Below, one piece after another: positions 2,728 through 15,015 of a DNA stretch of 40,928 nt. A program made the translations under genes and the position numbers. The notes under the pieces were generated by a model. That model worked only from the letters and a program-made list of their open reading frames with translations. It searched no databases and was not told the DNA's origin. This DNA is from Anaerostipes sp. MSJ-23 (GTDB taxonomy: Bacteria; Bacillota; Clostridia; Lachnospirales; Lachnospiraceae), in contig NZ_JAHLPY010000022.1 in the NCBI RefSeq assembly GCF_018918155.1, forward strand, positions 1 to 40,928. Direction: 5' to 3'. Each line of letters starts with the position of its first letter. Within the stretch, counting starts at the first letter, position 1.

Positions 2728-4149
2728 TTAATTTTCATCAATTTTAATCATTTTCCCAGGATTTAGAATTAATTTATCATCAAAAGCTCGTTTGATGGAT
2801 TTATATAACTGAATCATTCGCTCTCCTGCAAATTCTTCAAGGAAATCCAATCGCCCATTTCCAATTCCATGTTCTCCAGATAATTGCCCTCCGAGTTTTT
2901 TAGATAGTGCATATAACTGCGTCAAAGATTCATGCGTTGCCTTTTTCCATTCTTCGTCACTCATTTCCGGTCCACGTAATAATTCTGTATGAATATTTCC
3001 ATCTCCACAATGACCGCAAGGTTCTACACGAATTCCATGAGAAGAAGCAATCTTCTTTGCCTGTTTTACATATTCAGCAATTTCAGACCTTGGAACAACA
3101 ACGTCACATTCTTCCTGGGCAACAGAGTCTGCTTTCATTCCCTCAAGAATGGCACCTCGTACTTCCCATACAGAAGCAGCTCTTTCTGGAGTTCCTGCAA
3201 TATTACAATCAAGAGCTCCATTTTCCAAAGCTGCTTCTGCCGCAGCTTCAACAGCACGCTTTAATTCTTCTTTACTTGAAGCATCATACATAACAATCAA
3301 AACAGCTTCTCCATGTTTTACTGGAAACTGCTTATTTAAGCTCCGTTCCACAATTTCGATTAGCTCCCTCTCTAAAAATTCAATCGCTGTTGGAATAAAT
3401 GGGAGTTCCAAAACTTTCGGTACCATATCCGCACATTCCTCAAGGCTTCGAAATGGCATAACAAGTGTACTTGTACAAGTTGGCGCCGGAAGAAGTTTTA
3501 ATGTAACCTCTGTTAAAATACATAAAATTCCTTCGGAACCGATCACAAGATCTTTTACATCAAATCCTGTTGTATTTTTTACTACATTAGAAGAAAAATT
3601 CATAATCGATCCATCCGGCATTACAACTTCCATACAACGGACAAAATCTCTTGTAAGTCCATAACGAACCGCTTTCATTCCACCTGCATTCGTAATAACA
3701 TTTCCACCAATCGATGCTGTTTTTTCTCCTGGATCCGGTGGATAAAATAATCCTTCTTCCTTTGCTGCCGCCTGAATATCAATGAGCAAAGCTCCCGGTT
3801 GCGCTGTAATGGTCTGATTTTTATGATCAACTGGAAAAATTTTATTCATACGCATAATAGATAACATAATTCCACCATATTTACAGGTTGCTCCACCAGC
3901 AAGCCCTGTTCCAGCCCCACGACAAACAACTGGAATATTGTTTTCATATGCATATTTCATAATTGTTGAAATTTCTTCTTTATTTAAAACTTCTACATAT
4001 AATTCTGGAGGAAAAACTCCATATTCCGGCATCTCATCTTTATAATATTCTTTCGCAATTTCATCTCCTACGAAGACACGATCTGGCGCTGTAAACGAAC
4101 GAATTTGATCAAAATCTTCCTGGGTCATTTTTTTATAAGGATACGGCAT
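2728..4149 (-). CDS. FAD-linked 2-hydroxyacid (lactate-type) dehydrogenase, LctD/GlcD family
   Basis: The 473-residue product is a full-length VAO/PCMH-fold flavoprotein. The N-terminal FAD_binding_4 domain shows CRGAGTGLAGGA (about residues 59-70) and PPDPGEKTASIGGNV. The C-terminal FAD-oxidase domain shows GHCGDGNIH and SGEHGIGNGR, the metal and substrate region of D-lactate, glycolate and D-2-hydroxyglutarate dehydrogenases. The start has an AAAGGAG site and overlaps the end of etfA by 17 bp, indicating translational coupling. With the two Etf subunits it should form a complex that oxidises a 2-hydroxyacid. In the lactate case, reduced ferredoxin oxidation is coupled to drive NAD+ reduction. 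Lactate is the likeliest substrate by family precedent. D-2-hydroxyglutarate or another hydroxyacid is possible because no lactate permease or racemase is nearby. Confidence 0.85.
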   Translation of the reverse strand: MPYPYKKMTQEDFDQIRSFTAPDRVFVGDEIAKEYYKDEMPEYGVFPPELYVEVLNKEEISTIMKYAYENNIPVVCRGAGTGLAGGATCKYGGIMLSIMRMNKIFPVDHKNQTITAQPGALLIDIQAAAKEEGLFYPPDPGEKTASIGGNVITNAGGMKAVRYGLTRDFVRCMEVVMPDGSIMNFSSNVVKNTTGFDVKDLVIGSEGILCILTEVTLKLLPAPTCTSTLVMPFRSLEECADMVPKVLELPFIPTAIEFLERELIEIVERSLNKQFPVKHGEAVLIVMYDASSKEELKRAVEAAAEAALENGALDCNIAGTPERAASVWEVRGAILEGMKADSVAQEECDVVVPRSEIAEYVKQAKKIASSHGIRVEPCGHCGDGNIHTELLRGPEMSDEEWKKATHESLTQLYALSKKLGGQLSGEHGIGNGRLDFLEEFAGERMIQLYKSIKRAFDDKLILNPGKMIKIDEN

Positions 4150-5341
4150 GATTTTTCTCCTTTCGTGCCTTTACAAGTTCTGTCAGTTTTGGTACTACCT
4201 GATAAAGATCATCCACAATACAATAATTTGCTACATTAAAAATCTGTGCCTGTGGATCATTGTTAATTGCAACAATATATTCTGAACCAGTCATACAGGA
4301 AGTGAACTGAATTGCCCCTGATACCCCACAGGTAATGATCAACTTAGGTCGTACAGTCCTTCCAGAGAGCCCAATCTGATGAGCCACATCACCAAAGCCA
4401 TTTTCAATCATTGGACGAGTAAATGCAAGTTGTCCTCCAAGAGCTGCCGCAAGATCTCTACACATTTCTACATCCTTTTCATTGCGGACACCACGTCCTG
4501 CAACAACCAAAATTTCTTCATCTTCCAGATTTCGTTTTTGCTCAATAACCTGTGATTTTAAAATTTCAATCGGCGAATCTGTCATTTCCTTTGTCACTGG
4601 ACAGACAATTACCTCTCCTTTTGGCTTTTCAATTGTTTCAGCTCGGTCCATAACTCGATAACGAACAGTTGCAAACTGTGGCCTTGATTTTGTGATCGAA
4701 ATCTGTGCCATAATATTTCCACCAAAAGCAGGACGAATCTGCACCATATCAGTATTCGATTTAATATCAAGCGTTGTACAATCTGCTGTCAATCCGGTAT
4801 GAAAACGTGTAGACAGACGCGGCGCCAAAGAACGTCCAAGTGCCGTTGCCCCAATTAATACAGAGCTTGGCTTTTGTGCTGCAATACACTCTGCCACAAC
4901 ATCGGTATAACAGTCTGCACGGAACCCTTCAAGCCCCTTATCTTCATAAGCAAACACCTGATCAACTCCATATGGAAGCAACTTTTTTGCGTTTTCAATC
5001 GTTCCTTCTCCACCGACAATTACACACTTGATCTTAAAATTTACTTTTGGGGCCATTTTTCTAGCTTCCCCAATGAGTTCATAGACCACTGGATGAATAT
5101 CTCCACGCTCCTGTTCCACAAAAATCAGGAAATCTTTCCACTCATTTTTATCAAAAGAACCGGCTCTTTGTTCAAAACTAATTGCTTTTTCTGGACATTG
5201 CCTTACACACATCCCACACATTCTGCATGTATCTCCAACTACAATTCCATGGTCTTCAAAGCTTAACGCCCCAAACGGACATTTTTCTATACATTTTCCG
5301 CATAAACTGCAACGCTTTGCATCAAATTTTATTAATCCCAT
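4133..5341 (-). CDS. etfA: Electron-transfer flavoprotein alpha subunit with N-terminal ferredoxin domain
   Basis: The 402-residue protein begins with two CxxCxxCxxxC-type iron-sulfur motifs (CSLCGKCIEKCP at 12-23 and CRMCGMCVRQCP at about 39-50). These are followed by an EtfA N-domain and the conserved FAD-binding C-domain (VVAGRGVRNEKD, then FTRPMIENG, then SGRTV, then ITCGVSGAIQ). Plain EtfA proteins are about 320 residues. The added 2[4Fe-4S]-type module is known from bifurcating or confurcating Etfs such as LctC of Acetobacterium. It begins 9 bp after etfB and overlaps the dehydrogenase gene. The predicted role is to shuttle electrons between ferredoxin, NAD(H) and the adjacent flavin dehydrogenase in the cytoplasm. 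Confidence 0.92.
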   Translation of the reverse strand: MGLIKFDAKRCSLCGKCIEKCPFGALSFEDHGIVVGDTCRMCGMCVRQCPEKAISFEQRAGSFDKNEWKDFLIFVEQERGDIHPVVYELIGEARKMAPKVNFKIKCVIVGGEGTIENAKKLLPYGVDQVFAYEDKGLEGFRADCYTDVVAECIAAQKPSSVLIGATALGRSLAPRLSTRFHTGLTADCTTLDIKSNTDMVQIRPAFGGNIMAQISITKSRPQFATVRYRVMDRAETIEKPKGEVIVCPVTKEMTDSPIEILKSQVIEQKRNLEDEEILVVAGRGVRNEKDVEMCRDLAAALGGQLAFTRPMIENGFGDVAHQIGLSGRTVRPKLIITCGVSGAIQFTSCMTGSEYIVAINNDPQAQIFNVANYCIVDDLYQVVPKLTELVKARKEKNHAVSL

Positions 5342-5350
5342 CTACTTCAC

Positions 5351-6139
5351 CTAAATCACTTTCTTTTTCACTAGTACGTTAAATAAATCTTCTGTTTTTT
5401 TCTGTGCATCTCCTTCAAAATAAACTTGTTTTTCAATTTCTGGAGGTGCAAACATTCTCTCAACAGCCGTCGGAGACCCAACCAATCCGTACCTGCTTAA
5501 GTTGTGATCTAACATATCATCAAATGTCATAATTTTGACTGGACGATCTTGTGATTCCTTCTGTAAAATATAGGAAGGAAGTCTTGGAACACACATATCT
5601 TTATCAACGGTAATCAAACATGGATATGGGATTTTCGATGTCTGAGATACGCTGACAAGATCTTGCCTTACCTGAATAGAATCCTGATCTGCATCTACAA
5701 TTTCCGCTACCCAAGCTGCATGCGGAATTCCAAGATGTTCTGCAATTGCCGGTCCAACCTGCGCCGTATCTCCGTCCGTTGTCTGTTTTCCACAAATAAT
5801 GAGATCTGCTCCTCCAGCCGCTTGAATTCCTTGTGATAAAGCATAGGAAGTTGCAAGGACATCTGCTCCTGCAAATTTACGATCTGATAAAATAATTGCA
5901 TCATCTGCCCCCATCGTATAAGCATCTTTCATCATTTCTTCTGCTTGTGGCGGCCCCATTGTAAGAACTGTAACACTTCCCCCAAGCTTTTCTCTTAACT
6001 GAAGTGCCGCTTCTAAGGCAAACAAATCATATGGATTTGTTCTTGTTTCTCCAGATAAACGTTTCATCGATCCTGTTTCCGGATCAATGTCAACCTTTGT
6101 ACCTGCTGGCACCTGTTTCATACATACAATAATCTTCAT
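5351..6139 (-). CDS. etfB: Electron-transfer flavoprotein beta subunit, bifurcating type
   Basis: The 262-residue EtfB shows NPYDLFALEAALQLRE, VTVLTMGPPQAEE and ICGKQTTDGDTAQVGP. The DGDTAQVGP segment is the signature seen in Etfs that bind a second, bifurcating FAD rather than AMP. It is the first gene of a four-gene unit (etfB-etfA-dehydrogenase-YkvI) transcribed from the promoter at 6184-6212. Its own ribosome binding site is weak (AAAGAAG). The gene order equals lctB-lctC-lctD. By family knowledge the complex couples hydroxyacid oxidation to NAD+ with ferredoxin as co-reductant. No regulator gene of the LctA type is next to it. Confidence 0.9.
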   Translation of the reverse strand: MKIIVCMKQVPAGTKVDIDPETGSMKRLSGETRTNPYDLFALEAALQLREKLGGSVTVLTMGPPQAEEMMKDAYTMGADDAIILSDRKFAGADVLATSYALSQGIQAAGGADLIICGKQTTDGDTAQVGPAIAEHLGIPHAAWVAEIVDADQDSIQVRQDLVSVSQTSKIPYPCLITVDKDMCVPRLPSYILQKESQDRPVKIMTFDDMLDHNLSRYGLVGSPTAVERMFAPPEIEKQVYFEGDAQKKTEDLFNVLVKKKVI

Positions 6140-6327: not shown

Positions 6328-8976
6328 TTACATTGCTTTTCTATAAATTTCTGCAATTTCATCTTGTGTAAAGGTCACTGGATGATTTGCTACACTGGCT
6401 GCAGATACTTTCATACAATTTTCTGCCATCCACGGAATATCTGCCTCTGATAATCCAAGACTTGATAAAGTACAAGAAAGATCCAGATCATTTAAAAGCG
6501 TTCTTAACTTTGGTGCCAAGTCCTCTGCTGTAACACCACCAAAAATACGAGCAATTTTTGCAAATTTAAAATGATCTCCTTTATGAGAAGCTTCCACAAT
6601 AACTGGTGTTAAGGCTGCTAATCCCTGTCCATGAACAATATCTTTCAGCCCACTTGCAGGATGTTCCATTCCATGTGCTAAAGTAACACCAGCTGTATTA
6701 ATTACCATTCCACCAATCGTTGAAGCAAGTGTAATTTTTTCCCATGCACTTGCATCTCCTTCTCCTTTGTATACTTTTACAAGATTCCCTGCAATCAGTT
6801 TCATCGCATAAAGACTTAATGCATCTGTAAATGGCTGTGCAATTTTTGATGTGTAAGCTTCCATACAATGACAAAGAGCATCAAATCCAACCGAAGCAAG
6901 CACATGTTTTGGCATCGTCATCATACATTCTGGATCAACAATGGATACTTTCGCAACGATCGCATTACAACGTAAGGATTTCTTATCTCCATTTTCTGGA
7001 TTTGTAAGAACCGCAAATCCATTTCCTTCGGATCCTGTTCCGCAAGTTGTAGGAATCAAAACTAATGGTAACGCTTTATCGCTTTGTAACTTGTTATAAA
7101 TGTAATCGTTGATATTCCCATCATTGACACATAAGAAGGCGATTGCTTTTGCACAGTCCATGATACTTCCACCACCGATGGCTACGACAACATCACATCC
7201 ATTTGCTTTGGCAAATCCGGCACCTTCCATGGCGGTTGTTGTTAATGGATTTTGTGCGACTTTATCAAATAATACATGATCAATTCCTACATCTTTTAAA
7301 CTTTTTGCTACTTTATCATATAAACCAGATTTTTTGGCACTGCTTCTTCCTGTTACAATTAACGCTTTCTTACCATATGGTTTTGTAAGTACACCAGTTT
7401 CTAAAACTTTTCCGCTTCCAAATGCAATATTTACTGGAAGAAAGTAATTGAAACTGAGGGCTGGTATTGTTTTCTCCTCTTTTTCTTCTGTTTGCACTGC
7501 TCCAAGAGCTCTCTCAAACATAGGATCTTCTTCTTCGCTAATTGCTTCGTTATCAATGGCAACATCCACGTGAGAAGCAAATTTTTCTTTATATTTTACT
7601 TTACAGATAATAAAGAAAAGCAATCCTAGGACAGCCCATCCACCAGCCATTGCCCATTCCTGCGGAACAAGATTTGATCCAGAACCAGGAATAATGTACA
7701 TTGCAACCATAAATCCTGACATTAAAACAGCCAATACCCCAACAATTTTATAATGTTTTACTTTATATGGACGAGCCATATCAGGTGCTGTCTTTCTTAA
7801 AATAATAAAAGATAACGAAACCATACAATATGCCATACAACATCCAAAGTTTCCTGCATCAACGATCCATACTAACATTTTACGACCAAACAATGGAGCC
7901 AAAATAGATAAAGCTCCTATTAGATATAATGCATTTACCGGAGTTTTATGTTTTGGATGTAATTTACTAAAAGCTCTTGGAATCATATAAGATTCTGCCA
8001 TTGAATACATCGCACGACTTCCGCCAATTAAAAAAGAATTCCAGCTGGTAACAATTCCACACATACCACCAACAATTAGTACTTTCGACATAATACTACT
8101 ATGAAATGCTTTTGCCATGGCATCTGCCGTTACAAGTCCAGAACCTGCCTGAGAAGATTTGATATCTGCTGCGCTCATAACATAACCAACACCAAGAATA
8201 ATCAATGCATAAAAGGCAACCGCAAGAACAATCGATAAAATCATAATTTTCCCGATTTTCTTTAACGGCACATTGATTTCTTCTGCTGCCTGAGGAATGA
8301 CATCAAATCCAATAAAGAAAAATGGCGTTACCACCGCAACACTTAAAATCGTTTTAAAAATACTTCCCGTACTATCTCCTGCAAATACCTGCGGTGCCAA
8401 ATTGTGCACATTTCCGCTAAATACAGATGCTACAATTAAAAGAATCCCAACACCACCAATAATAACCGTTAATACTGTTTGTAAAATGGCTGCTGTCTTT
8501 GCACCTTTGATATTAATAAAAGTAATGAAAAATGCAACAAGCATTGCCACTGCAAGCCAAGATGCATAAATGTCAAATCCTGCGACTGTATATAAATATC
8601 CTTTTAAAAATCCAGGATAAATATAAGTAATAATTGTTGGAAGTGCACATGCCTCAAAGCATACAACACTGACATATCCAAGAACGATTGCCCATGTACA
8701 GATAAACGATCCAATGGGTCCTAACGCTTTATAACTAAAAACATGTTCTCCACCACACTGTGGCATTGCCGCTGTTAATTCTGCATAAGTAAGTCCAACA
8801 AAAAATACCATAATTCCGCCGAGAGCAAAACCAATAGCAGCACCAACAACTCCGCCTCGCTCAATCCAATCTCCAGAGGATACTACCCATCCCCATCCAA
8901 TCATAGCACCAAAGGCAATGACAAGAATGTCCCATGCACTAAATACTTTGTCAAATTCTGATTTTTTCTTTTCCAT
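6328..8976 (-). CDS. APC-family amino acid/amine permease fused to iron-dependent alcohol dehydrogenase
   Basis: One uninterrupted ORF of 882 codons joins two normally separate proteins. Residues 1 to about 462 form an APC-superfamily permease with about twelve membrane spans. It opens with AFGAMIGWGWVVSSGDW (21-37) and contains CGGEHVFSYKALG. Residues 463-505 are an acidic, charged linker (AISEEEDPMFER). Residues 506-882 are a complete group III Fe-alcohol dehydrogenase. This has the NAD(P)-binding GGGSIMDCAK (601-610), TTCGTGSE (643-650) and metal ligands D699, H703, H768 and H782. The start has a good AGGAAAGGG site. The enzyme would face the cytoplasm, so an imported substrate's aldehyde product could be reduced at the membrane. 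The neighbouring aminotransferase suggests the aldehyde comes from a terminal amine. Substrates are unknown; a butanol- or hydroxybutyrate-dehydrogenase activity is possible. Both modules keep their key residues, so the fusion looks functional rather than an assembly error. Confidence 0.88.
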   Translation of the reverse strand: MEKKKSEFDKVFSAWDILVIAFGAMIGWGWVVSSGDWIERGGVVGAAIGFALGGIMVFFVGLTYAELTAAMPQCGGEHVFSYKALGPIGSFICTWAIVLGYVSVVCFEACALPTIITYIYPGFLKGYLYTVAGFDIYASWLAVAMLVAFFITFINIKGAKTAAILQTVLTVIIGGVGILLIVASVFSGNVHNLAPQVFAGDSTGSIFKTILSVAVVTPFFFIGFDVIPQAAEEINVPLKKIGKIMILSIVLAVAFYALIILGVGYVMSAADIKSSQAGSGLVTADAMAKAFHSSIMSKVLIVGGMCGIVTSWNSFLIGGSRAMYSMAESYMIPRAFSKLHPKHKTPVNALYLIGALSILAPLFGRKMLVWIVDAGNFGCCMAYCMVSLSFIILRKTAPDMARPYKVKHYKIVGVLAVLMSGFMVAMYIIPGSGSNLVPQEWAMAGGWAVLGLLFFIICKVKYKEKFASHVDVAIDNEAISEEEDPMFERALGAVQTEEKEEKTIPALSFNYFLPVNIAFGSGKVLETGVLTKPYGKKALIVTGRSSAKKSGLYDKVAKSLKDVGIDHVLFDKVAQNPLTTTAMEGAGFAKANGCDVVVAIGGGSIMDCAKAIAFLCVNDGNINDYIYNKLQSDKALPLVLIPTTCGTGSEGNGFAVLTNPENGDKKSLRCNAIVAKVSIVDPECMMTMPKHVLASVGFDALCHCMEAYTSKIAQPFTDALSLYAMKLIAGNLVKVYKGEGDASAWEKITLASTIGGMVINTAGVTLAHGMEHPASGLKDIVHGQGLAALTPVIVEASHKGDHFKFAKIARIFGGVTAEDLAPKLRTLLNDLDLSCTLSSLGLSEADIPWMAENCMKVSAASVANHPVTFTQDEIAEIYRKAM

Positions 8977-9049: not shown

Positions 9050-9089
9050 AAAAAAGGCATTAAAAGATTTTCCAATCTCTTAACGCCTT
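9050..9089 (-). terminator. Terminator after the cytidylate-kinase-like gene
   Basis: The arms 9054-9069 and 9074-9089 pair over 16 bases with two wobble positions and a four-base loop. The minus-strand product ends in six T. It separates the kinase-like gene from the fusion gene. Confidence 0.85.
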
Positions 9090-9122
9090 TGTCAGAATGT
9101 AAATGTTTTTATAAATAAAATT

Positions 9123-9719
9123 TTAATTTTCAAATCGAAGATCGATCAGCTGCAAAATATATTTTGCGGTTTTTTCAAGTCCAAGAATACTGGAATCAAT
9201 CATCATATGTCTTGTATGACAATCTCTCATGCTAGAATTTGTCATATATTCATATCTTGATTTCAACATTCTATCGTTATATTTTACAAGTTTCTCTGCT
9301 TCTTTTTTCGAAATTCCTTTTTGTTCCATAATATGCTGCACTTTATATTCTTCCGGTGCATATACAAAAATATTTAAGCAATCATCTCTATCTTTTAAAA
9401 TGTAATTGCTACATCTCCCAATGATTACACAAGAAGACTTTGCCGCCAATTTGTGAATTACTTCAAACTGTGTATAAATAACACGGTTGGTAAGATTGGC
9501 ATATCGTGGTCCAAAACTTGTATCAAATTCATATTTTACATTATCATCTCCGGAATCTGCTTTTTCTACCAATTTTCGGTCTACACCAAGCCGATCTACC
9601 ACCTGATCTACCAAGTCACGATCATAATATTGAATTCCAAGAGAATCTGCAACTAATTTTCCTATATCAGGTCCACCACTCCCATATTCACAGCCGATAT
9701 TTACAATAAAATGTTTCAT
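9123..9719 (-). CDS. Cytidylate kinase-like family protein
   Basis: The 198-residue product belongs to the cytidylate-kinase-like family (Pfam PF13189 type). It has an N-terminal nucleotide-binding EYGSGGPDIGKLVAD (about residues 11-25), then YYDRDLVDQVVDRLG, CVIIGRCSNYIL and a C-terminal helix rich in basic residues. True CMP kinases are about 225 residues and have a standard P-loop GPxGxGKS, which is altered here. Family members are widespread in Clostridia and their substrates are unproven. The AAGGGAGG site is well placed before ATG 9719. It lies 22 bp behind the aminotransferase gene with no terminator between them, so the two are likely co-transcribed. A role linked to the aminotransferase pathway is not evident. 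Confidence 0.8.
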   Translation of the reverse strand: MKHFIVNIGCEYGSGGPDIGKLVADSLGIQYYDRDLVDQVVDRLGVDRKLVEKADSGDDNVKYEFDTSFGPRYANLTNRVIYTQFEVIHKLAAKSSCVIIGRCSNYILKDRDDCLNIFVYAPEEYKVQHIMEQKGISKKEAEKLVKYNDRMLKSRYEYMTNSSMRDCHTRHMMIDSSILGLEKTAKYILQLIDLRFEN

Positions 9720-9741: not shown

Positions 9742-10953
9742 TCATAAAGCCTCCACAGCCTCTTTTAAGATTTCATAAGCTTTATCACATTCCTCTTCGG
9801 TTACAATTAATGGTGGAATTGTACGGATCACATGATTTCCAATCGCAGTTACTAGAAGTTTACGGTCAAAGCATCCATGCTTAACATCTAAAGCATTAAT
9901 ACTGTCATCAAATTCAATTCCCGTTAATAATCCCTGGTATCTAACTTCTTTTACATGAGGAAGTGTTTTTAGCTTCTCTGCAAAATAATCTCCCACTTTC
10001 TTTGCATTTCCAGCAAGATCACGATCAATTAGTTCATTTACTTCCGCAAGTGCAGCTGCGCAGCTTACCGGATGTCCTCCAAAGGTTGTTCCGTGAGATC
10101 CAGGAGTAAATGCTTTGGAAACTTCTTCCGTTGCACAAATCGCACCTATCGGCATTCCTCCTCCTAAACCTTTTGCCATAGAAACAATATCTGGTTTGAC
10201 TCCATAATTCATATAAGACATCACTGCACCAGTCCTGCACCATCCTGTCTGTACTTCATCAATTAAGAGCAACATATCATTTTCATCACAGAATTCTCGA
10301 AGACCTTTCATAAATTCCATTGTTGCAGGATGTACACCACCTTCCCCTTGGACTGGTTCAATCATAATTGCAATGGTATTTTCTGTACAGGCATCTTTAA
10401 AAGCCTGAAGATTATTATATGGAGCATAAGAAAACCCATAAGTCATTGGTCCAAATCCAACCTGGCATCCATTTGCTGGCTGTCCTGTCGCAGACATTGC
10501 CCCAAAAGTTCTTCCATGAAATCCCATCTTAGCAGTTACAATATGGTAATGATTTGGTCCATATTTTTCAATTCCATATTTACGTGCCATTTTAATCATA
10601 GCTTCATTTGCTTCTGTACCAGAATTCTGATAGAAAATTTTATCCATTCCAATCGTCTCACAAACTTTTTCTGCAAGCAAAGCTTGTGGAATTGTATATG
10701 GATAATTAAACGTATGCATAATATCACCGACTTGGTCTTTCACAGCCGCAACTACTTTTTCATTACAGCTGCCTGCATTGTTTACTGCAATTCCTGCATA
10801 AAAGTCAAGATAAGCTTCTCCATTTTCATCATACATATACATATCTTTTGCTTTCTCTGCGAGAAAATCAAAACGTTCATAAGTTTCAATCATATATTTA
10901 TTTACTTTATCTTTAATATCCTGTGCACTTAATCCTGTATCTTTTAATCTCAT
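9742..10953 (-). CDS. Class-III PLP aminotransferase (acetylornithine/GABA type)
   Basis: The 403-residue fold-type I enzyme carries SGTEAN (111-116), GFHGRTFGAMSATG, EPVQGEGG, the PLP-contacting IDEVQTGWCRTG (D232) and the Schiff-base lysine in SMAKGLGGG (K261). Length and motifs fit the ArgD/GabT/ornithine aminotransferase group. These transfer an omega-amino group to 2-oxoglutarate, giving an aldehyde and glutamate. No arginine-biosynthesis gene is adjacent. Instead a permease-alcohol dehydrogenase fusion follows, so a catabolic omega-amino acid or diamine substrate is inferred. Translation starts at ATG 10953 behind TTAGGAGG. Expression is probably controlled by the leader hairpin and TTGGAC sites upstream. 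Biosynthetic acetylornithine aminotransferase remains the main alternative. Confidence 0.85.
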   Translation of the reverse strand: MRLKDTGLSAQDIKDKVNKYMIETYERFDFLAEKAKDMYMYDENGEAYLDFYAGIAVNNAGSCNEKVVAAVKDQVGDIMHTFNYPYTIPQALLAEKVCETIGMDKIFYQNSGTEANEAMIKMARKYGIEKYGPNHYHIVTAKMGFHGRTFGAMSATGQPANGCQVGFGPMTYGFSYAPYNNLQAFKDACTENTIAIMIEPVQGEGGVHPATMEFMKGLREFCDENDMLLLIDEVQTGWCRTGAVMSYMNYGVKPDIVSMAKGLGGGMPIGAICATEEVSKAFTPGSHGTTFGGHPVSCAAALAEVNELIDRDLAGNAKKVGDYFAEKLKTLPHVKEVRYQGLLTGIEFDDSINALDVKHGCFDRKLLVTAIGNHVIRTIPPLIVTEEECDKAYEILKEAVEAL

Positions 10954-11719: not shown

Positions 11720-12776
11720 TTATTTTTCTAAAACTAATGTTTCAAATGGTCTTAATATAATTTTGTTTTCCACAATCTTCTCTGCATCATAATTTTCTAA
11801 CAGTTTATGATAAGCAACCCATTCTTCTATTTCTACTTCTTTTTCTTTCTCCATCATATTATTCAATACGATCAAACATTCCTCTTTATAAACTCTTTTA
11901 TATGCCAAAATATCAAGATCTTCTTTTTCAAAACAATGGTTCCTTCTGAAATCACTTTCTTTTCTCAGATCAATTAATTTTTTATAGAAATAATAAATGG
12001 AATCTTTATCTTCTAATTCTTTTTTTACATTGGTTTGTTTGTAATGATCCGGAACGGAAATCCATGGTGTTACACTAGAAAATCCTGCATTTTCTTCGTC
12101 TGACCACTGCATTGGAGTTCTACTATTATCTCTGGAACATTCTGACAAAGTTTTTAATGCTTCTTCTTTTGTTTTTCCATCCTTTAGAAGAATCTGATAA
12201 TAATTGAGACTTTCTACATCTCTGTATTTAGAAATATCATTAAAATGTGCATTCAGCATTCCTATTTCTTCTCCCTGATAGATATAAGGAGTCCCCCTCA
12301 TCATATGTACAGTGGCTGCAAGCATCTTTGCAGACTGTTTCCAATATTTCCCTTCATCACCAATTCTTGAAACGATTCGCGGCTGATCATGATTACACCA
12401 GAATAAAGAATTCCATCCATTTGCATTCTACATTCCAATCTGCCACTCTTCAAACAATTTTTTTAATTGTTTATAGTCTAGTCTGGTTTCATCAGCTCCT
12501 ATTTCTTTCCGTCTTTATAATCTACCTTCAGATTCGGAATCCTTTAACACCCTTTTCCTTCCAGAAGCGAATGACTTTTTTAAGTTCTTCTCTTACTTTT
12601 GAATTTTCCCAGTTTAAATCTGCCTGTGTAACATCATATAAACAAAGGTACCATTTTTTTAAAGATGGAACATATTTCCATGCCGGTCCTCCAAATTTAG
12701 ACTCCCAGTTTGTTGGAAGTTTGTCTTCTGCTCCATCTTTAAAAACGTAATAGTCCTGATATTCTTTATCACCACT
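11720..12776 (-). pseudogene. Broken GH13 alpha-glucosidase / trehalose-6-phosphate hydrolase
   Basis: Fragments of one GH13 enzyme occur in order on the minus strand. The first, from about 12776, reads YQDYYVFKDG, then NWESKFGGPAW, then QADLNWEN and FWKEKGVKGFRI. This ends in a stop where the catalytic GFRxD aspartate should follow. An internal deletion then joins to LKVDYKDGKK, followed by a frameshift. LKKLFEEWQIGM comes next, ending at an in-frame TAG at about 12431 where glutamine is expected. The intact tail runs NGWNSLFWCNHDQPRIVSR, then GTPYIYQGEEIGM, to a stop at 11720. The N-terminus is missing. The C-terminal 201 codons form an open frame from ATG 12325 but cannot make an active enzyme. 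Trehalose-6-phosphate hydrolase or oligo-1,6-glucosidase cannot be separated. Confidence 0.8.
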
Positions 12777-14081: not shown

Positions 14082-14636
14082 TTAACGATAATCCACAAAA
14101 AAGCACATAAAGCTTGCTCTTTTATCTGTCTGATTTCTATAGATATGTGTTTGATCTGTTTCAAATCTATAAACCTGTTTTTTATTAACTTGTTGTATAT
14201 TCCCATGACATTCCACAGTGATCTCTCCCTCCGAGACAGCAAGATATTCTCTTGTTTTTTCTCCATGGCTTCCACTTATATATTCTCCACCCGGTTCTAT
14301 ATCAATGCGATAGATTTCCACCTGATGATTATCTTCATACGGAAAACAGGTCCATACTTTATACTTGCCTGAAATCTCTTTTGTAGGAATCATCTCTTCT
14401 GGCGTGACCAAACAAGATTCCATGGGTGGAGCTTCGATCAATTCTTGGAATTCAATTCGAAGACCACTGATAATCTTTCCAAGAACACCAAGTGATGGGT
14501 TTGCTTTTCCTTTTTCAATCTGTGCCAGCATACTCTTACTGACTCCTGTCTGTTCTGCTACAACATCAAGACTCATTCCTTTAGAAGTTCTAATCCTTTT
14601 CAGATTGACTGCAACATTATGAGATAAATAATCCAT
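14082..14636 (-). CDS. XRE-family regulator with C-terminal cupin domain
   Basis: The start is ATG 14636 (MDYLSHNVAVNLK), preceded by AGGGAG. The longer frame from 14690 runs into the upstream gene without a ribosome site. The 184-residue product has an N-terminal helix-turn-helix (KRIRTSKGMSLDVVAEQTGV then SKSMLAQIEKGKANPSLGVL). Its C-terminal cupin_2 barrel includes PGGEYISGSHGEKTREYLAV and HIYRN. This HTH-cupin layout is common in regulators that sense a small metabolite and control a linked transporter or catabolic gene. Its gene overlaps the LpdD-like gene by 20 bp, so the two are translated together. The ligand and targets are unknown. Confidence 0.85.
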   Translation of the reverse strand: MDYLSHNVAVNLKRIRTSKGMSLDVVAEQTGVSKSMLAQIEKGKANPSLGVLGKIISGLRIEFQELIEAPPMESCLVTPEEMIPTKEISGKYKVWTCFPYEDNHQVEIYRIDIEPGGEYISGSHGEKTREYLAVSEGEITVECHGNIQQVNKKQVYRFETDQTHIYRNQTDKRASFMCFFVDYR

Positions 14637-15015
14637 TCTTTTCTCCCTGCGCTTCGATATATAGAAAAATCTTTTGCAATAATGCGTCACATTTTTCTAT
14701 AACTATGTTTATCTGTTCCGGTGTAATTCCATCAATGTGGATCCCACAAGAACATACGACAATACCATTTGTTTTCTTTGCAGTTTCCTCTGCAATCCAC
14801 TTAGCAATCTGATCATCTTTATGCCCTGTCACAGTAAGAATCGATGATGATACACCAATACCATTTCCTATAAGACTCGGCCGGGCAATCGACATAACAA
14901 CTGCGCCAACATGTGGAGTATCTCCTCCATATATAGCAATCGTATAATCTTTTCCCATTTGTATCATATCACAATTTAAATCATACTGATCAAATAATAC
15001 TTCCTGAATTATCAT
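14617..15015 (-). CDS. LpdD-like small protein (putative prenylated-flavin chaperone)
   Basis: The 132-residue protein has the pattern YGGDTPHVGAVVMSIARPS, then VTGHKDDQIAKWIAEE and VVCSCGIHIDGIT. This resembles the small LpdD/gallate-decarboxylase D-subunit type. There the protein helps load or maintain prenylated FMN in UbiD decarboxylases. No UbiD or UbiX gene is in the window, so that function is doubtful here and the call rests on motif memory. The start codon overlaps the stop of the upstream 94-residue gene (ATGA arrangement), and the end overlaps the XRE-cupin gene. The middle position in a tightly coupled three-gene unit implies a joint function. Confidence 0.45.
   Translation of the reverse strand: MIIQEVLFDQYDLNCDMIQMGKDYTIAIYGGDTPHVGAVVMSIARPSLIGNGIGVSSSILTVTGHKDDQIAKWIAEETAKKTNGIVVCSCGIHIDGITPEQINIVIEKCDALLQKIFLYIEAQGEKNGLFIS

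Follow-up and report, generated by a model that had tools for sequence, protein, structure and literature searches.

An APC permease joined to an iron-dependent alcohol dehydrogenase in Anaerostipes, a candidate transporter-enzyme fusion for GABA use with split, swapped and catalytically dead relatives

A single 882-residue protein of Anaerostipes sp. MSJ-23 combines a complete APC permease with a complete iron-dependent alcohol dehydrogenase (Fe-ADH), and we lean, if only slightly, towards the view that this transporter-enzyme fusion serves the use of GABA, or of a very close omega-amino acid, through uptake, transamination and tethered reduction to 4-hydroxybutyrate. The gene lies on the minus strand at 6328-8976 of the window, by which we mean the whole stretch of 40,928 nucleotides that was analysed (contig NZ_JAHLPY010000022.1 of assembly GCF_018918155.1, positions 1 to 40,928); it begins with ATG and has no internal stop. 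Neither the two domains nor the proposed pathway is of a new kind; the fusion, its joining or separation across relatives and a derivative with a dead domain appear to be new. Literature searches, judged by titles and opening lines of abstracts, gave no description of the APC permease/Fe-ADH architecture, in agreement with a preliminary description of this DNA, which knew of no described member. The probabilities that we attach to this reading and to its rivals overlap, are not exclusive and need not sum to one.

The permease part comprises residues 1-470 (7567-8976, minus strand). AA_permease_2 (PF13520) matches residues 12-447 (E 5e-36; 125 bits against a gathering score of 27) over positions 1-421 of the 427 in the profile, a near full-length match that places this part among the APC permeases. 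By hydropathy it has 13 overlapping hydrophobic stretches, compatible with the APC fold of 12 transmembrane segments, and its nearest solved relatives by sequence are the GkApcT-type amino acid transporters 5oqt (E 3.5e-29) and 6f34 (E 1e-28), whose solved chains (471 and 461 residues) differ from it in carrying no enzyme domain. The acidic linker, described earlier as about 40 residues long, was found at residues about 463-507 (7456-7590, minus strand) from hydropathy and an alignment of fusions; it is variable, with A490 nearly invariant across 30 aligned fusions. The Fe-ADH part follows at residues 508-882 (6331-7455, minus strand) and contains Fe-ADH (PF00465) at residues 514-682 (E 9.9e-53; 178.6 bits, gathering score 31.3) and ADH_Fe_C (PF25137) at residues 694-882 (E 3.8e-42; 144.6 bits, gathering score 27); by sequence, its nearest solved relatives are Fe-ADHs such as 5yvm. 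In the alignment, the GGGS nucleotide-binding motif (residues 601-604; 7165-7176, minus strand) and D699, H703, H768 and H782 (spanning 6631-6882, minus strand), which we take from FucO-type enzymes to be the metal ligands, are all kept. With both domains at full length, the Asp-His-His-His metal site and GGGS, the window's ADH part belongs to the iron-containing alcohol dehydrogenases. The intact frame, the full Pfam match of both parts and the retained motifs thus bear out the preliminary description of the protein. Across 98 aligned ADH rows, 95 have all four ligands; the other three are a Megasphaera locus (L073) and the two pieces of L055.

The preliminary description counted relatives with two separate genes at this locus among the refuting observations. 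Such relatives do exist (17 plus 7 rows of the classification below) and are what speaks for a sequencing or assembly artefact that joined two genes, but the fusion is in-frame across many independent assemblies, including one of the same genus (G006) in which an identical layout with 90% identity lies on a single contig. Because of this recurrence we read the two-gene relatives as the outcome of gene joining or separation, reject an assembly artefact or a missed stop, and regard an artefact as next to impossible. In a search of 98 genomes, the window's included, full-length in-frame matches beyond the window occurred in G006, G036, G046 and G053. Between the window and the congener copy (L002), where dS is near 1, dN/dS came to 0.052 in the permease and 0.048 in the ADH, and to 0.40 in the linker; the values of about 0.05 imply that both halves are maintained.

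A scan of genome contigs, which kept the best 80 of 97 relatives, yielded 75 loci. A first script, run on 95 loci, counted 33 fused and 18 split ones; it read plus-strand matches only, so that L001-L004 were passed over, and it lost L073 to an identity filter. Classification on both strands covered 67 permease rows, of which 37 are fused and 17 split, 7 have a different Fe-ADH as a separate gene (swapped) and 6 are ADH-less, two of these last being far outgroups. This count leaves out L001, L003 and L004, which repeat the window, L023 and L088, as well as L048 and L080, whose permease match does not exceed 300 residues, and among the 37 fused rows L100 repeats L040 and L055 is broken inside the ADH. 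In L055 (7485-10125), which comes from a MAG, the ADH part of the fused gene falls into two frames, through error or decay. With these rows corrected and four records from a Veillonellaceae genome search, fused records total about 40. Among the bearers are Pseudoscardovia suis and another Bifidobacteriaceae record (Actinomycetota), together with Epulopiscium, Hespellia, Oliverpabstia, Blautia-named bins and Megasphaera (Veillonellaceae). The ratio of fused to split loci is biased, as the loci were retrieved with the fused protein as query. In two surveys that scored at most two candidates per genome, the fused form was found in 7 of 392 genomes sampled evenly across the order (the window included; one, G185, ends inside the ADH), and a phylum sample of 398 genomes held 17 with a match at E 1e-90, both halves being covered only in the window's. 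Conservation in related species, on which the preliminary description made its new transport-coupled enzyme depend, is supported by in-frame fusions in many independent records, although the fusion is a minority form in the order.

Permease and Fe-ADH lie side by side in fused, split and swapped rows alike. Where the genes are split (17 rows), the permease gene ends and, within about 100 nucleotides, that of an ADH with 61-78% identity to the window's begins; six of these rows show an ATGA overlap of stop and start. In the 7 swapped rows a different Fe-ADH occupies this place, with 31-34% identity to the ADH of the window in the five that were compared. Two further loci (L064, L076) hold the same ADH elsewhere within the cluster. 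The split, reordered and swapped loci imply that the pairing of the permease with an Fe-ADH outlasts separation, reordering and replacement of the enzyme.

The history of the fusion was followed in quick trees without bootstrap. L012 and L014 (34% and 32% permeases) were too distant to serve as root, and the permease tree was rerooted on seven outgroup permeases. In the rooted tree, the earliest branches of the main clade are fused rows, 25 rows of the split, swapped or ADH-less kinds cluster inside it (SH-aLRT 94, unstarred), and L051, which has separate genes in the order permease-ADH, lies outside it. One early fusion followed by separations is only favoured; the deep forks are unstarred and long branches meet. 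Split permeases of the main clade (L035-L038, L041, L060, L061, L063, L065, L067-L070, L072, L074, L081) and swapped ones (L053, L058, L059, L062, L071, L098, L101) carry an acidic tail of 45-54 residues past residue 462 with a shared pattern; this tail measures 13-18 residues in the seven outgroups and 26 in L051. It is either a remnant of the linker or, possibly, a docking segment for the ADH.

These loci bear on a more modest explanation, in which two co-transcribed neighbours were joined almost neutrally and the fusion brings no gain over the separate pair. It is favoured by the adjacent split pairs with their six ATGA overlaps and by the fast divergence of the linker, as well as by the trees, in which starred branches force at least four changes of the fused label for the ADH (the fragment loci L048, L075 and L080 being doubtfully labelled) and only one for the rooted permease. 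However, the fusion is present in two phyla, and even a dead domain is retained, which suggests some function; we consider a joining of this kind doubtful, though worth keeping in mind. Tethering as such is not required, as two-gene relatives exist.

The dead domain is found in Veillonellaceae. Searching 17 genomes of the family of the Megasphaera locus gave 8 matches at E 1e-60, namely 5 full-length fusions and 3 permeases only. In all five fusions (L073:8001-10580, L109, L110, L111, L112) the four metal ligands and GGGS are replaced, and identity to the window is 75-76% in the permease and 31-38% in the ADH half. The dead half is nevertheless of full length, and Fe-ADH and ADH_Fe_C score above their gathering scores in all four proteins scanned; that of L073 reaches 194 bits with the window's ADH versus 84 with the substitute ADH of the swapped loci. 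Its dN/dS is 0.11 in the pair L073/L109 and 0.19 in L111/L112, with permease values of 0.07 and 0.04 in the same pairs, two other Veillonellaceae pairs being saturated and dN/dS in them not computable. The dead half therefore persists without chemistry, under selection that is relaxed but still purifying, and the fusion does not always serve to couple transport to reduction. As a consequence, the early proposal that the fusion sets aldehyde reduction beside the uptake route remains plausible where the catalytic residues are kept and would not apply to these five fusions. L073 also has a second permease copy upstream, which is without an ADH.

Such proteins would suit a different division of labour, in which the ADH half would mainly regulate the permease or act as its scaffold (through sensing of NAD(H) or aldehyde, or through oligomerisation), catalysis would come second and Veillonellaceae would have kept only the first role; the full length of a half that has lost ligands and GGGS in five of five cases, its matches to both Pfam domains and its dN/dS all point that way. 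Yet the ligands stand in 95 of 98 ADH rows and dN/dS is 0.048 in the window pair, which implies that catalysis is under selection outside Veillonellaceae; moreover, two-gene relatives manage without a covalent link, and the saturation of two further pairs weighs on the same side. We judge this division of labour quite improbable. Rather unlikely, too, is a speculation that leaves catalysis in place and makes the fused ADH a built-in sensor or gate of the permease as well: it would bind NAD(H) or the semialdehyde, or pair transporters, so that uptake tracks redox, the Veillonellaceae protein would be a pure pseudoenzyme regulator, and the acidic tail of the two-gene permeases would be a docking piece that replaces the covalent link.

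Release of a free ADH by an internal translation start was rejected for the window, in whose linker an in-frame start codon with an SD-like sequence was looked for and found absent. Such a start is present in the linker of 7 of 31 fusion rows with a resolved frame, a scan in which L110 was read in the wrong frame and from which six rows with no resolved frame (L005, L033, L052, L088, L111, L112) were dropped. In the near pair L025 and L056, an ATG with an SD-like sequence lies exactly at the start of the ADH part, and a free ADH from this internal start is possible there.

The fusion belongs to a recurrent neighbourhood. Immediately upstream of it is a cytidylate-kinase-like gene (9123-9719, minus strand; Pfam), a neighbour of 34 of the 35 catalytic fusions, of all five dead fusions and all seven swapped loci, and of 15 of the 17 split ones; it sits between transaminase and permease in nearly every mapped locus. 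Next comes a class III aminotransferase (9742-10953, minus strand), the presumed source of the aldehyde; it is ArgD-like, passing the acetylornithine/succinylornithine model TIGR00707 (425.1 bits, cut-off 410.05) and no GABA-T model. Counted within 3.5 kb and on the same strand, a class III transaminase accompanies 29 of the 35 catalytic fusions, all five dead ones, 15 of the 17 split loci and all seven swapped ones. Six catalytic fusions have none nearby: L024, L026 and L034 start near a contig end, and L028, L029 and L099 show no transaminase homologue despite at least 5 kb upstream of the kinase-like gene. No transaminase was found within 3.5 kb of six permease rows without an ADH (L113, L114, L115, L127, L128, L129; the flank is only 1.5 kb in L113-L115) or near the outgroups L122, L125 and L126. 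An XRE-type regulator is encoded 3 kb upstream of the window's transaminase (14082-14690, minus strand), and in 11 of the 35 catalytic fusions a homologue is encoded no more than 3.5 kb from the permease and on its strand.

Other genes of the window were observed in passing. Directly downstream of the fusion, 2728-6139 encodes EtfB, an EtfA that carries a ferredoxin domain, and an FAD oxidase of the GlcD type, a set that resembles that of a bifurcating lactate dehydrogenase; as part of the module it was rejected, since among 35 catalytic fusions (some with flanks of only 1.5 kb) it lies near one, the window itself. Between the kinase-like gene and the fusion, an AT-rich hairpin of 17 pairs followed by a T-rich stretch (9053-9090, minus strand) could cause transcription attenuation, in a terminator scan that overall stayed near chance (7 found, 6.6 expected); Rfam gave no match in the window at gathering scores, this hairpin included. 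A 201-residue ORF at 11720-12325, which matches only positions 341-543 of the alpha,alpha-phosphotrehalase model, is probably a truncated gene, and the 394-residue protein of 1531-2715, by eye a membrane protein, has no Pfam or NCBIfam match at 1e-3.

The substrate was approached through gene context. Besides ArgD-like transaminases, the loci hold GABA-T-like ones (502.9 bits in L030, TIGR00700 cut-off 506.65). A GABA-T-like gene stands directly upstream in place of the ArgD-like one in L043, L069 and L072 and follows the fusion in L044 and L045; in the window's genome such a gene lies on another contig (L096), next to a PucR-type regulator. The outgroup permeases on which the tree was rooted (45-52% identical) adjoin a GABA-T-like gene in six of seven cases, and all four of these genes scanned (L118, L120, L123, L124) exceed the TIGR00700 cut-off. 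In L123 and L124 the adjacent genes also include a succinate-semialdehyde dehydrogenase that exceeds the TIGR01780 cut-off and a regulator of the GntR/aminotransferase type, which together make up a gab-like operon; an aldehyde:ferredoxin oxidoreductase is encoded near the permease of L118. Among stand-alone relatives of the ADH, L089 (68%) has as neighbours an agmatine deiminase, an N-carbamoylputrescine amidase and a putrescine aminotransferase, each above its cut-off, a GABA-T-like gene that narrowly misses its own, an ALDH and a P-II protein. Homologues of putrescine aminotransferase likewise lie near L079 and L082, and ALDH genes adjoin the ADHs of L087 and L090, both with urease genes and the former with P-II; the neighbourhoods of L087, L089 and L090 suggest nitrogen scavenging. 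Taken together, the transaminases beside most fusions, the gab-like outgroup operons and the agmatine-putrescine clusters at stand-alone ADHs indicate GABA, which we infer as substrate from this context, and they narrow the unspecified aldehyde of the preliminary description to succinate semialdehyde formed from GABA.

Several observations speak against the GABA reading: the ArgD-like type of the window's adjacent transaminase, the place of its GABA-T-like gene on another contig, the fusions with room upstream and no transaminase homologue (L028, L029, L099), the ADH-less and outgroup permeases without one nearby, and the dead ADH halves of Veillonellaceae. So do the curated models for GABA permease and 4-hydroxybutyrate dehydrogenase, neither of which is satisfied. 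The window's permease scores 44 bits with the GabP model TIGR01773 (cut-off 678.1), and its ADH scores 178.3 bits with the 4-hydroxybutyrate dehydrogenase model NF058672 (cut-off 500) and falls below the cut-off of every NCBIfam equivalog listed. The context of the relatives fits a gab-type module; the adjacent transaminase in the window is ArgD-like. The latter, and the putrescine aminotransferase homologues near L079, L082 and L089, would also fit the same architecture and logic with another substrate (ornithine or acetylornithine, beta-alanine, 5-aminovalerate or putrescine), the matching semialdehyde being reduced to its hydroxy compound. We hold this to be a tentative alternative with a minor share of the probability: in L043, L069 and L072 the position of the ArgD-like gene is taken by a GABA-T-like one, and the nearest outgroup permeases sit with GABA-T, two of them also with SSADH.

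For GABA, we infer the following scheme, including its substrate, the direction of the reaction, the export of the product and the benefit of tethering. The N-terminal permease would import GABA or a close omega-amino acid, and a transaminase, either that encoded two genes upstream or the GABA-T-like enzyme from elsewhere in the genome, would form succinate semialdehyde by transfer of the amino group to a 2-oxo acid. Kept below the permease on the cytoplasmic side by its tether, the C-terminal Fe-ADH would reduce the semialdehyde with NAD(P)H to 4-hydroxybutyrate, which would then leave the cell; the gain would mainly be nitrogen and the safe disposal of a reactive aldehyde. HpaB_N, which we take to be a mark of 4-hydroxybutyryl-CoA dehydratase, matched in 0 of 15 genomes, nine of them fusion-bearing, versus 6 of 14 control genomes. 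Onward fermentation via an HpaB_N-type dehydratase was therefore rejected, and 4-hydroxybutyrate is probably a released end product.

Several known systems resemble parts of this arrangement. The gab operon of Bacilli encodes GabT, GabD and a GABA permease, and its look-alikes L123 and L124 likewise place a homologous permease (47% and 45% identical) by a GABA transaminase and a succinate-semialdehyde enzyme; here, in contrast, an Fe-ADH, of which reduction is expected, stands instead of an oxidising ALDH, and it is fused to the permease. Fe-type 4-hydroxybutyrate dehydrogenase, found in fermenters of GABA or succinate, shares the Fe-ADH superfamily and the proposed reaction but differs in the low model score of the window's ADH, in the permease tether and in the absence of HpaB_N from the 15 genomes. 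The ErcA-like Fe-ADH model NF041833 is the best NCBIfam match of the ADH half, at 248.5 bits, but this is below its cut-off of 550, and the model spans the ADH part alone. Fusions of SulP with carbonic anhydrase also join a transporter to the enzyme that handles its cargo, with unrelated domains and reaction.

From a natural fusion of this kind one can read which enzyme acts after a given uptake step, and the series of fused active, two-gene, fused dead and substitute-enzyme loci offers a test of what tethering buys. The dead-domain fusions may represent an enzyme turned transporter accessory. If the GABA reading holds, the catalytic fusions would mark a route by which gut-type anaerobes could make 4-hydroxybutyrate, a neuroactive compound.
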